This document shows, one piece after another, positions 13,722 through 63,867 of a stretch of 64,000 nucleotides of DNA (its first letter is position 1; every line of letters starts with the position of its first letter). The stretch covers positions 1 to 64,000 of the forward strand of contig CALXAT010000001.1 of the NCBI GenBank assembly GCA_944386365.1, written 5' to 3'. Source of the stretch: an uncultured Clostridia bacterium. Its GTDB lineage: Bacteria > Bacillota > Clostridia > TANB77 > CAG-508. Both the position numbers and the translations under genes were made by a program. The notes under the pieces were generated by a model, which saw nothing but the letters and a program-made list of their open reading frames with translations, made no database searches and was not told where the DNA came from.

Positions 13722-14195
13722 TTACATATTATAACATCTATATTTGTATTTTTGTGTTGGTATATGAATGTTCATATTTATAGTCTTTGGAACATCACTA
13801 CCAACTTTTATACCTTTATTAAGCTTTAGATTTCCGTTTTTATCTCTGTGATAAATACTAGGGTTGTATTTTGCAAAAGCATAATCATTTATATTGCCAC
13901 TAAAATATGATAATTCTAATGAATCTTTGTATTGTAATGCCTTTAGTTGTTCATAATAATTATCCTCTTTCTTTGGTCTATCATAATTTTTAAAATATTC
14001 TTTCAAATAGTCTTGTCGCTTTTTAGCATTATTCTCTTTGCGAGTTTGTTTTTCTTTTTTACTTCTAACATCAGCATTAACTATTTTTGAAACATATTGT
14101 TTACTAACACAAAGCATTGTTGCAATATCTTTTTGTTTCAGATGTTTATTATAGTACAAATCTAAAATGTCTTTTTTATTATCCAACCTTAACAT
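13722..14195 (-). CDS. sigma-70 region 4-like HTH protein (157 aa)
   Basis: Residues about 5-45 (DILDLYYNKHLKQKDIATML, CVSKQYVSKIVNADVR) form a helix-turn-helix like that of sigma region 4 or transposon-encoded HTH proteins. A basic lysine/arginine-rich stretch and a C-terminal half of unknown fold follow. Many integrative elements carry such a gene near xis-int. A strong minus-strand promoter lies at 14367-14395 and a GAAAGGGAGGT site precedes ATG 14195. Likely a regulator of the element; target not known. Confidence 0.65.
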   Translation of the reverse strand: MLRLDNKKDILDLYYNKHLKQKDIATMLCVSKQYVSKIVNADVRSKKEKQTRKENNAKKRQDYLKEYFKNYDRPKKEDNYYEQLKALQYKDSLELSYFSGNINDYAFAKYNPSIYHRDKNGNLKLNKGIKVGSDVPKTINMNIHIPTQKYKYRCYNM

Positions 14196-59403: not shown

Positions 59404-59487
59404 GCGGATGTGGCGGAACTGGTAGACGCGCTGGTCTTAGGAACCAGTGCCAACGGCGTGGGGGTTCGAGTCCCTTCATCCGCACCA
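59404..59487 (+). tRNA. tRNA-Leu (anticodon UAG)
   Basis: Acceptor GCGGATG pairs with CATCCGC; anticodon loop CTTAGGA gives UAG; class II variable arm; GGTTCGAGTCC T-arm; CCA encoded. No att-like duplication of its 3' end is seen in the window. Confidence 0.97.
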
Positions 59488-59570
59488 ATAAAGGTTTCAA
59501 GCCTTTATGAGAGATTAAATATACAGGAAATTTTATAAATTTTCTAACACTTTTTAGAATTTTAGAAATT

Positions 59571-59615
59571 AGTTGTTGTTAATTTTGGACGGTTGCAACA
59601 ACTTTTTCTTTTTTT
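59571..59615 (+). terminator. terminator downstream of tRNA-Leu(UAG)
   Basis: AGTTGTTG pairs with CAACAACT, followed by TTTTCTTTTTTT. Its T-rich end is also where leader copy A begins. Confidence 0.7.
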
Positions 59616-59803: not shown

Positions 59804-59875
59804 ATGAAAATAAGAGCTGTAAGCCTTGAGGCTGTACACACACACACACACACACACGATATGTTTAGTAAATAA
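59804..59875 (+). CDS. leader peptide with His-Thr repeat, copy A (23 aa)
   Basis: ATG 59804 follows AGAGGAG by 9 nt. The peptide reads MKIRAVSLEAV, HTHTHTHD, MFSK. The His-Thr run is the in-frame translation of the (AC)11 microsatellite. Copy B encodes the identical peptide; the one substitution between them in this ORF (AGT/AGC Ser) is silent, which favours translation. Alternating His and Thr codons also recall amino-acid attenuator leaders. Function unknown. Confidence 0.55.
   Translation: MKIRAVSLEAVHTHTHTHDMFSK
59836..59857 (+). repeat. (AC)11 microsatellite, copy A
   Basis: Eleven uninterrupted AC units inside the leader ORF; such tracts slip readily during replication. Confidence 0.95.
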
Positions 59876-60079: not shown

Positions 60080-61225
60080 ATGAAAGAAAAATTTAAAAAT
60101 GTAAAAGGAATTACACTGATTGCATTAGTTATCACAATCATTGTTTTGCTAATACTTGCTGCTGTAACGATTGCAACATTAACAGGAGAGAATGGAATAT
60201 TAACAAGAGCAAGTGATGCAAGTCGAGAAAATGAAATTGCATCAGTAAAAGAACAGGCACAGTTAAATATAGCAAGTTATGTAGCAGACAAACTGAAAAA
60301 TGGAGAAGATTCAACAGTAAATACACCAGAAAAAGTACAAGAAATCTTAAATAATGCAAATACAGAAGGAAATAAATACTATAGTGGTTTTACAGAAACA
60401 GGAGTAACAACACCAAATGGATATGAGGTACCATATGAAGAATTATATACAACTGGTACAAGTGGAGAAGAAACAGCATCAAAGACAATAGAAGATTTAG
60501 TAGCAGGAGATAAAGTATATTATGATACGGGAGACCCAAGTGTAGGAAATCAGGGAATAATAGAATGTACAGTATTATATGATAAAGCATATAATGAAGC
60601 AAATGGAACAAATTACGGAGTACAGATAATATCATCAGATGTTATAAAAACTACAGATGGAACAGTAGCTACTCTTACATTAGGTGATAATAATTTTGAA
60701 GCATCAAGAGAGTCATATAATAATGCATTAAAAACATTATATGATGAGGCGCAAAAATATTTAAATTCAACATATGCAAGTGGAGCAAGATGTGTAGGAA
60801 GCGATCCAGCAGATCCAGATTGGGATACTACGACAAATGAGGCCGGATATGTTACAAAAAATGAAGGTGAAGATGATTATTATGCATACATGAAAGATTA
60901 TTATGGGACATTAAAAAATAAAGATGAAAATTATAGTACAGATTGGATGCAAATGGGGATAATAGCGGAGGTAAAGTCATCGAGTGCTAAGTATTGGTTA
61001 GCTTCGCGCATTGTTTCCTTTAATTCTCAATACAACAATTTCCTTGTGCGTTCTGTTGGTACTACCGGTGCCTTTCGTATCGATAACTTGTGCTATGTTT
61101 GGTCTTTCGGAGGTACCTCTGGCATTGGTGTTTCGTGCGGTTTACGACCTGTGCTTACTCTGAGATCTGGTATCAAGATAGCAAAAGGAGATGGAGTTGA
61201 TACACCATACACATTAGCACCATAA
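60080..61225 (+). CDS. prepilin-headed surface protein with DGR-like variable C-terminus (381 aa)
   Basis: Head VKGITLIALVITIIVLLILA (residues 9-28), a helical spacer, then an extracellular region with KTIEDLVAGDKVYYDTG. Residues 305-363 form the conserved-frame/variable-core module: YWLASR, FLVRSVG, LRPVLTLRSG. This fits the C-type-lectin-like fold of DGR targets and FGE-sulfatase-related domains. Upstream DNA is A-rich, whereas this segment is A-poor. GGGAG precedes ATG 60080. It follows leader copy A. The protein is probably displayed on the cell surface, binding an unknown ligand. Confidence 0.75.
   Translation: MKEKFKNVKGITLIALVITIIVLLILAAVTIATLTGENGILTRASDASRENEIASVKEQAQLNIASYVADKLKNGEDSTVNTPEKVQEILNNANTEGNKYYSGFTETGVTTPNGYEVPYEELYTTGTSGEETASKTIEDLVAGDKVYYDTGDPSVGNQGIIECTVLYDKAYNEANGTNYGVQIISSDVIKTTDGTVATLTLGDNNFEASRESYNNALKTLYDEAQKYLNSTYASGARCVGSDPADPDWDTTTNEAGYVTKNEGEDDYYAYMKDYYGTLKNKDENYSTDWMQMGIIAEVKSSSAKYWLASRIVSFNSQYNNFLVRSVGTTGAFRIDNLCYVWSFGGTSGIGVSCGLRPVLTLRSGIKIAKGDGVDTPYTLAP
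60992..61168 (+). other. candidate DGR variable repeat 1
   Basis: Codes for YWLASRIVSFNSQYNNF through RPVLTLRS. In 61021-61140 only 19 of 120 bases are A, against 27 of 60 at 60901-60960 in the same gene. The borders coincide with the conserved YWLASR and RPVLTLRS ends. Confidence 0.55.
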
Positions 61226-61968: not shown

Positions 61969-62040
61969 ATGAAAATAAGAGCTGTAAGCCTTGAGGCTGT
62001 ACACACACACACACACACACACGATATGTTTAGCAAATAA
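61969..62040 (+). CDS. leader peptide with His-Thr repeat, copy B (23 aa)
   Basis: Same peptide as at 59804-59875, same ribosome site, same (AC)11 tract. The only difference inside the ORF is a silent AGT to AGC change. Confidence 0.55.
   Translation: MKIRAVSLEAVHTHTHTHDMFSK
62001..62022 (+). repeat. (AC)11 microsatellite, copy B
   Basis: Eleven AC units, same length as copy A. Confidence 0.95.
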
Positions 62041-62228: not shown

Positions 62229-63509
62229 ATGAAGGAAAAATTAAAAAATAAGCAAGGTATTACTTTGATTGCACTTGTTATTACAATCATAGTTTTGCTA
62301 ATATTAGTAGGAGTAAGTATTGCGACACTAACAGGCGAGAATGGAATATTAACAAGAGCAAGTGATGCAAGAACACAAACAGAAATAGGAGATGAAATGG
62401 AAAAGGTAAAGTTATCAGCAACAGGAGCTAAAGCAGAGAATAATGGAGGAGAAATAAAAAGAAACTATTTAAATGATGAACTTACAAGTTATATAGGAAC
62501 AGAAGGAACAGATTATACATTATCAGAATCAGAAACAGCACCGTTTGTAGTAACATATTCAGATAGTGGGAGAAGCTATGTAATAGATGAGAATGGAAAT
62601 GTAAGTGAATATGTAGACATAGCGGAATCTGTCGAAGTTGGGGATTATGTAGATTATAATCCAACAGTATTGGATAAAAGCGGAACACCAGTAGAAGAAA
62701 ATAAATTAACATATACATCTCCAACAGGAAGTGGGACACAGCATGGAAACGGAAGTAGAGATCAAATATTTACAGCTACAGCAAATACAAAATGGAGAGT
62801 ATTAGATGTAGGAAATGAAACAGTAACATTAATATCCGAAAATCCTATAACAATAGATGCAGGTGGAAACTTTAGAATGTATGGTGCAATAGGATACTTA
62901 TATGCAGAACGAGAATTAAATGAGATATGTAAAATATATGGCTATGGGTATGGGGCAGATACATCACAAGTAACGAAATATAGTTATGGAGGGCCAATAG
63001 ATGGAGAATTGACAGGAGAAATAACAGGTTCAGGAGCAAGAAGTATAACCATAGAAGATATAAATAAACAAGCAGGAATTACAGAAGCAGAATATACAAC
63101 ATTAAATAGTGATTATGGAAGTACAACGAATCCAACAGTTAATGTATATTATCCAACAATAACTACATCAAATGGAAAATCAAGATCAGCAGGAGTAAAA
63201 AATTTGGAATATACTTCTTATTATTACAGCAAGACAAAAATAGAAAATCCAAATGCAAAAAATATGCTATTTAATGGAAACTACTGGTTAGCCTCTCGCT
63301 GTATCAGTCCTAGTTCAAGCTCCAGCAGCTTCATTGTGAGCGTTGTGTATGATGACAGCACGAACGCGGGCAGCTTGTGCAGTGGTGGATCGAGCTTAGG
63401 AGAGACTGCGTACAGCCATTTTGCGGTTCGCCCCGTAGTGATTCTAAAATCTAATGTCATAGATACAAATACAAATTATGAAACAGAAGGACATTGGAAT
63501 TTAAAGTAA
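62229..63509 (+). CDS. prepilin-headed surface protein with DGR-like variable C-terminus (426 aa)
   Basis: Head NKQGITLIALVITIIVLLIL, then ATLTGENGILTRASDAR as in the protein at 60080, and a different middle region (EVGDYVDYNPTVLDKSGTPV, ANTKWRVLDVGNETVTLISE). Residues 352-408 are the variable module: YWLASR, FIVSVVYDD, AVRPVVILKS. Start ATG 62229 after GGGAG; the frame opens from 62145, which lacks a site. Both proteins share head and tail frame but differ in the middle, as expected from duplication with divergence or domain exchange. Confidence 0.75.
   Translation: MKEKLKNKQGITLIALVITIIVLLILVGVSIATLTGENGILTRASDARTQTEIGDEMEKVKLSATGAKAENNGGEIKRNYLNDELTSYIGTEGTDYTLSESETAPFVVTYSDSGRSYVIDENGNVSEYVDIAESVEVGDYVDYNPTVLDKSGTPVEENKLTYTSPTGSGTQHGNGSRDQIFTATANTKWRVLDVGNETVTLISENPITIDAGGNFRMYGAIGYLYAERELNEICKIYGYGYGADTSQVTKYSYGGPIDGELTGEITGSGARSITIEDINKQAGITEAEYTTLNSDYGSTTNPTVNVYYPTITTSNGKSRSAGVKNLEYTSYYYSKTKIENPNAKNMLFNGNYWLASRCISPSSSSSSFIVSVVYDDSTNAGSLCSGGSSLGETAYSHFAVRPVVILKSNVIDTNTNYETEGHWNLK
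63282..63452 (+). other. candidate DGR variable repeat 2
   Basis: Codes for YWLASRCISPSSSSSSF through RPVVILKS. 27 of 120 bases (63301-63420) are A against 28 of 60 at 63181-63240; GC at 63361-63420 is 35 of 60. Codons are unlike the rest of the gene. Confidence 0.6.
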
Positions 63510-63583: not shown

Positions 63584-63831
63584 ATGCGTATATTAAATAT
63601 AGTAAAAACAGCTAAAGAAGTACATAAAAATGATATTATACTTGTAAAAATAGGAAAGTTTTATCAAGTTTATGGAAAAGATGCATATATAATTTCATAT
63701 TTTTTTGAGTACAAACTAAAAAAGTAGAAAAAATATATATGTGTGGATTTCTACAAAGTAGCTATAATAAAGTAATTGCAAAATTAGAAGAAAAGAAAAT
63801 AAATGACGTTTCTGTTCGAACTAATAGATAG
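63584..63831 (+). pseudogene. MutS domain I-like (MSL-type) small gene, frameshifted
   Basis: ATG 63584 after TAGGAGAA reads ILNIVKTAKEVHKNDIILVK, IGKFYQVYGKDAYIISYFF, resembling the mismatch-recognition domain start of MutS (the FYxxYGxDA region), and stops at 63727. In the next frame from 63724 it continues EKIYMCGFLQSSYNKVIAKL up to a stop at 63831, so one frameshift splits it. It is far too short for MutS. MutS-like small proteins have been described as accessory genes of diversity-generating retroelements. Confidence 0.6.
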
Positions 63832-63836
63832 ATATG

Positions 63837-63867
63837 AAAATCAATCAGTAAAATGATTGATTTTTTT
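63837..63867 (+). terminator. terminator after the MutS-like remnant
   Basis: AATCAATCA pairs with TGATTGATT around a 6-nt loop, then T run. From 63868 to the window end I see no gene. Confidence 0.8.

Follow-up and report, generated by a model that had tools for sequence, protein, structure and literature searches.

Positions 63584-63804 of the window, the whole stretch of 64,000 nucleotides of DNA analysed here, hold the 5' half of a gene for MSLa, a small accessory protein of diversity-generating retroelements (DGRs) that consists of MutS domain I. MSLa has no intact open frame in the window, where the gene carries one frame break and its C-terminal half is gone. This stump is very probably the relic of a DGR cassette that sat in a tRNA-Leu(tag) integrative element, and from which a deletion took the machinery and left orphaned targets (Table 1). 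The element context and the pairing of MSL proteins reported below are new, in that they go beyond the family and the gene context called in the initial annotation.

Table 1. Features of the tRNA-Leu(tag) locus in the window.
Feature	Position	Strand	Remarks
tRNA-Leu, anticodon tag, integration site	59404..59487	+	ARAGORN; corresponds to L009 405-488
Left end of integrated element with scrap of integrase 3' end	59488..59615	+	blastn to G027 L071 1072-1210, 78%, E 2.4e-27
Variable gene v1	60080..61225	+	381 aa; prepilin-like N-terminus, C-terminal variable region; frame intact
Variable gene v2	62229..63509	+	426 aa; frame intact
Variable repeat of v2	63287..63438	+	From comparison to the G004 template repeat
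MSLa stump, first frame	63584..63727	+	47 aa; start of MutS domain I; above PF01624 cut-off; 96% to intact MSLa of G004
MSLa stump, continuation in neighbouring frame to deletion point	63721..63804	+	31.5 bits to MSLa profile; alignment to G004 stops at 63804
Trailer with terminator, which in relatives comes directly after tRNAs, tRNA-Leu(tag) among them	63802..63867	+	Chromosomal flank of the right end, which is lost

The first frame of the stump opens with ATG, contains GKFYQVYGKDAYIIS and reaches its stop at 63727. The MutS domain I features that the initial annotation had read in this frame were borne out by profile search: the stump scored 26.9 bits (E 6.7e-6) against PF01624 in a six-frame search of its own genome, and the 47-aa piece by itself scored 29.1 bits, the curated cut-off being 20.6 bits. 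With the genus MSLa profile, the first and second pieces reached 72.2 and 31.5 bits, and the best of 1000 shuffled sequences per piece 9.6 and 11.6 bits, respectively. The gene does lie immediately after the variable gene, as had been claimed, since its start is found 75 bp past the stop of v2. Gene homology breaks off abruptly at 63804 in the alignment to the relative G004. Because it stops there, the last 27 bases of the interval 63584-63831, which had been given to the gene in full, fall outside it; they are tRNA-trailer sequence and provide the tail and the stop of the -1 frame.

Similarity to the MSLa family resumes in the neighbouring frame from 63721, so that there is one frame break, in agreement with the single frameshift initially described, and the relatives are open across this position. 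The break falls in an A-run that reads A_AAA_AAG just ahead of the stop, a heptamer that is slippery, and frames of ~76-102 aa have stayed open in several of the stumps found in other genomes. The split gene might thus still be made, by -1 slippage at the A-run, into a short domain-I protein. We consider this extremely improbable: intact relatives read through in a single frame, hence there is no conserved frameshift, and the product would still be without its C-terminal half. Moreover, the stump has Leu where CGFP has its almost invariant Pro, and replacements account for five of eight base changes in the 27 codons after the break versus two of four in the 45 codons before it, although these numbers are small. 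On the preferred reading, a relic of a deleted cassette, the frame break would be a further lesion in a gene that was no longer needed.

To place the stump in its family, the 47-aa piece was used as a query against 194 genomes of the genus (E up to 0.01), of which 55 matched; 40 of the MSL places from this search were fetched for context. The closest intact MSLa, that of G004, is identical at 96% of the 47 aa, and the second-best, in G074, at 85%; both have open frames of 172 aa. In G004 the variable gene, MSLa, Avd and the template repeat follow each other on one strand, and on the other lie an RT, which is damaged, and a second gene of MutS-like type. The third gene of this cassette was recognised with PHROGs as the Avd of a DGR (2e-17), its Pfam bAvd match being below the cut-off of that family. 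The template and variable repeats of G004 differ at 22 adenines and at no other base over 100 bp. The intact MSLa of G074 likewise lies with Avd, a template repeat and an RT. Decay is common, as the RTs of both G004 and G074 are damaged, the former missing an internal stretch and the latter being split.

MSLa and the second protein, MSLb, separate cleanly by profile. The stump scored 72.2 bits with the MSLa profile and 16.0 with that of MSLb, and an MSL protein encoded on contig C16 of the same genome scored 33.8 and 191.1 bits, respectively (the latter protein being itself in the MSLb training set). The stump as a copy of this C16 protein was rejected, as BLASTP gave a 2-residue match only (E 26) and the C16 protein is MSLb-type. 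It was likewise rejected as a piece of full-length mutS, which has an open 875-aa frame at C1:270733. A phage origin was rejected as far as tested, since none of nine pattern stretches in the viral contigs of IMG/VR was a relative.

Intact MSLa relatives are ~145-153 aa long, and the two that were scanned show MutS_I alone over the cut-off. AlphaFold2 models of MSLa and MSLb were confident, with mean pLDDT values of 91.9 and 92.2, respectively, and for both models MutS structures ranked at the top in Foldseek. Compared with full-length MutS, the MSLs thus have the domain I fold, but with ~140-150 aa they have no ATPase, and the Glu of the F-x-E motif, which we take to act in mismatch recognition in MutS, is nearly always gone: in the alignments the Phe is invariant, and the Glu is found in 1 of 24 MSLa sequences and in none of the 13 of MSLb. 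With the Phe retained, the Glu mostly lost and models resembling MutS, the fold of the mismatch domain has therefore been kept and the full recognition pair has not. The last 40 residues of MSLb include a C-terminal LSxxEAFxxIExL, which presumably resembles the extreme C-terminus of full-length MutS. For intact MSLa, the cDNA/target heteroduplex or the RT complex is the probable binding partner.

An MSLa alignment scan of named genomes gave 60 loci, which overlap in genomes with the 40 fetched ones and whose titles are uncultured Clostridia, Clostridium, Clostridiaceae or Clostridiales MAGs, plus one Bacilli. Within the fetched stretch, the 51 loci with a full-length MSLa have Avd following it in 47 cases, an RT in 42, MSLb in 16 and an adenine-biased pair of template and variable repeats in 32, which agrees with the initial proposal that such proteins are DGR accessories. 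Among full loci, Avd, RT and repeat pair are all absent at three (L146, L165 and L171), two of which, L165 and L171, are less than 500 bases from a contig end; full loci without RT that have fewer than 900 bases downstream are L125, L144, L165 and L171. The nine shortened MSLa loci have an RT in two cases, both fragments, and no repeat pair; the difference between full and shortened loci (Fisher, p 0.0008 for RT and 0.0005 for repeats) comes from counts that take in contig-end loci, such as the shortened L172 and L167, with 1 and 223 bases downstream. Two observations had been named as speaking against the DGR reading, namely a lack of similarity to MSL sequences and wide occurrence of the gene without a DGR; both were looked at and neither was found.

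These findings fit what has been described for DGRs. Passages of a survey that cites Wu et al. 2018 (PMC10053308) name MSL (PF01624) among the known DGR accessories, and the protein presented there is the same in being a small MutS domain I-only protein near Avd, template repeat, RT and variable gene; the window differs in holding a broken stump minus the rest of the cassette, and intact relatives may carry two MSLs. Moreover, passages of Schillinger et al. 2012 (PMC3521204) describe inverted DGRs, with the RT on the strand opposite to template repeat, variable repeat and target, in three cases from Shewanella, Vibrio and Photobacterium. This RT orientation is shared by 19 of the 42 RT-bearing loci with full MSLa, several of them with MSLb adjoining the RT, while the other 23 have the RT on the same strand. 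A term search of the main text of Roux et al. 2021 (PMC8144416) gave no mention of MutS, accessory or pilin. A literature search limited to freely available papers gave no description of paired MSLs at one locus; the pairing may be novel.

The variable genes bear the trace of a DGR. Two further ones, v3 and v4, lie past 64000, at C1:66170 and C1:68397; v1-v2 and v3-v4 are diverged copies of each other, and v4 has its own MSLa stub. The prepilin-like N-terminus of v1 gave an N_methyl match below the cut-off only. Relative to the G004 template repeat, v2 is changed at 29 of 57 adenines and at 17 of 120 other bases (p 4.5e-7), v4 at 24 of 59 and 16 of 121 (p 5.3e-5), and v1 at 40 of 59 and 39 of 122 (p 5.1e-6); for v3 the difference was not significant (25 of 55 and 38 of 114, p 0.088). 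Judging by these adenines, the DGR that diversified v2 and v4 had a template near that of G004. The DGR reading of the locus is thus supported by the very gene that neighbours the stump. Runs of CA dinucleotides were noted at ~62004-62022 and, upstream of v1, at ~59835-59855, inside near-identical segments upstream of the variable genes, and could act as a phase-variable expression switch. The genus searches behind the trailer and v2 comparisons took in 188 genomes. The fetched stretches of G081, G185, G127 and G074:C13 hold v2-type variable genes without MSLa or any DGR part; the variable gene can therefore occur without the cassette.

Nothing in the assembly is able to diversify v2 and v4 at present. 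RT, Avd and template repeat are absent at the locus and present in relatives, and the sequence beyond 64000, where the initial annotation had advised looking for an RT, has none of DGR kind on the rest of the contig: the machinery is gone. In the whole genome, an RVT_1 search found RTs on contigs C2 and C16 only, and Avd was likewise detected only at the DGRs of these two contigs. That of C2 (L011, C2:40000-50000) comprises Avd, RT, template and a prepilin-like variable gene, and that of C16 (L018/L019) follows the order MSLb, Avd, RT, with a template/variable pair that has 13 adenine mismatches and no others in 100 bp; both have other templates and do not serve the variable genes of this locus. 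Pattern and DNA searches for a template repeat of v1-v4 recovered the variable genes alone in this genome: the conserved edge of the variable repeat occurs four times, once in each of them, and the G004 template as a query found only v4, v2 and v3 below E 0.9. An adenine-tolerant sliding search for template repeats in the window and 16 fetched loci gave nothing useful, and a PADLOC scan returned one weak Csm2 match along with generic RT matches. Since the genome consists of 29 contigs, a cassette could be hidden in an assembly gap, though the stated completeness is 100. As neither a template nor a matching RT was found for them, the variable genes would stay frozen in the state that diversification last gave them.

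Complete elements in relatives indicate how the cassette would have arrived. Those with a tyrosine integrase measure 10.7-12.7 kb and carry copies of the 3' end of tRNA-Leu at their borders. In G027 (12.7 kb), the tRNA-Leu at L071 988-1071 has its end repeated perfectly over 45 bp at 13746-13790, and between these repeats lie the tyrosine integrase, regulators, variable gene, MSLa, Avd, template, RT, MSLb and a Mob_Pre relaxase. G152 follows the same plan, with an integrase and a 45-bp tRNA copy and no relaxase match; G004 has a relaxase and a 52-bp tRNA copy. An integrase of this type was found at five of the 40 fetched loci (L071, L083, L086, L097 and L098), all five with tRNA-Leu, and the fetched loci lacking it may have other contexts. 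The G027 element shares the tyrosine integrase, MobV/Pre relaxase and tRNA 3'-end repeats with integrative and mobilisable elements as presented in passages of PMC5704250, and differs in its cargo, a complete DGR; the copy in the window is in addition minus integrase, relaxase and right end. A literature search for DGRs on mobile elements found no tRNA-Leu element of the G027 type. A Legionella DGR is located on a mobile island.

In the window, the first ~62 bases after the tRNA are near-identical to the left end of the G027 element, and the bases past the stump are the same as the trailer after the right repeat of G152 and as the trailer after the tRNA at an element-free site in G047, where the gene upstream of the tRNA is also the same as in the window. 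The left end after the tRNA and the stump joined to the trailer lead us to conclude that the stump marks the deletion of the DGR machinery of a tRNA-Leu element. Neither an integrase, except for the scrap in the left-end alignment, nor a relaxase was matched in L009. No direct repeat of the tRNA 3' end is present at 63804, so that the trailer and the left end are what the element is deduced from here; past v4 there is a 17-bp copy (C1:69806-69822), into which the MSLa stub behind that gene continues. The following course would account for these data. A DGR cassette of variable gene, MSLa, Avd, template repeat and RT would have been carried by an integrative element inserted into the tRNA-Leu(tag) 3' end. 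One deletion, running from the right part of the element into the tRNA trailer, would then have removed the rest of MSLa, Avd, the template repeat, the RT, the mobilisation gene and the right att site, and another most of the integrase, leaving the left end, two targets and the MSLa stump.

The same remains could have another source, with v1/v2 and the 5' part of MSLa being a copied unit, by which extra targets were seeded away from a complete cassette and diversified in trans. The diverged copies v1-v2 and v3-v4, with the stub behind v4, would suit such copying, as would G019, where the cassette is complete on C7 and C3 has a variable gene together with an MSLa stump of 81 aa. The two variable-gene copies of G019 (L073 7820-9266 and L074 8542-9995) are 92% identical overall with identical variable repeats; the identical tract of ~250 bp spans the variable repeat of both and looks as if it had been copied from one gene to the other. 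We nevertheless hold a copied unit to be unlikely for the window, given that its genome is without a template or a matching RT, that the left end of the element is kept at tRNA-Leu, and that the stump abuts the tRNA trailer, a junction that would not arise from a copy set down at another site. An error in the assembly of the draft contig, for which the position of the break in a homopolymer might speak, is a very unlikely source of the break or the shortening: stumps of the same plan are found in other genomes, where their junctions differ, and what adjoins the stump on the right is authentic tRNA-trailer sequence. The preferred reading remains the deletion of an element-borne cassette.

This locus illustrates the death of a DGR in place, where template, Avd and RT are lost, the diversified targets stay, and the stump of an accessory gene is the mark. 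Stumps of MSLa thus offer a handle for finding DGR targets that have been orphaned in genomes where no reverse transcriptase matches them, and the intact relatives, complete elements of which one has two MutS-like proteins, offer material for probing the putative role of MSL in retrohoming. It is a tentative and somewhat doubtful extension that the DGRs of this genus travel on small tRNA-Leu elements, with the MSLa/MSLb pair recognising or shielding the mutated cDNA/target heteroduplex, and that the machinery is later shed while fixed variable surface proteins and MSLa stumps remain, a course of diversifying and then freezing. In such a scheme MSLa would go with target, Avd and template, and MSLb would often adjoin the RT.

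Up to E 1 the sequence at 63802-63867 matched nothing in Rfam and was rejected as a known RNA family; it was likewise rejected as a repeat within the genome (best non-self match E 0.019). The conserved trailer, a hairpin and terminator, was observed behind different tRNAs (Leu, Cys and Thr) and tmRNA across the genus. Right after it, at C1:64027-65781 (L009 5028-6782), lies an operon of three genes, the first of which encodes a Fic-domain protein. The same Fic operon, with 92% identity, follows tRNA-Leu(caa) and the same trailer in G031, and is succeeded there by a different variable gene.
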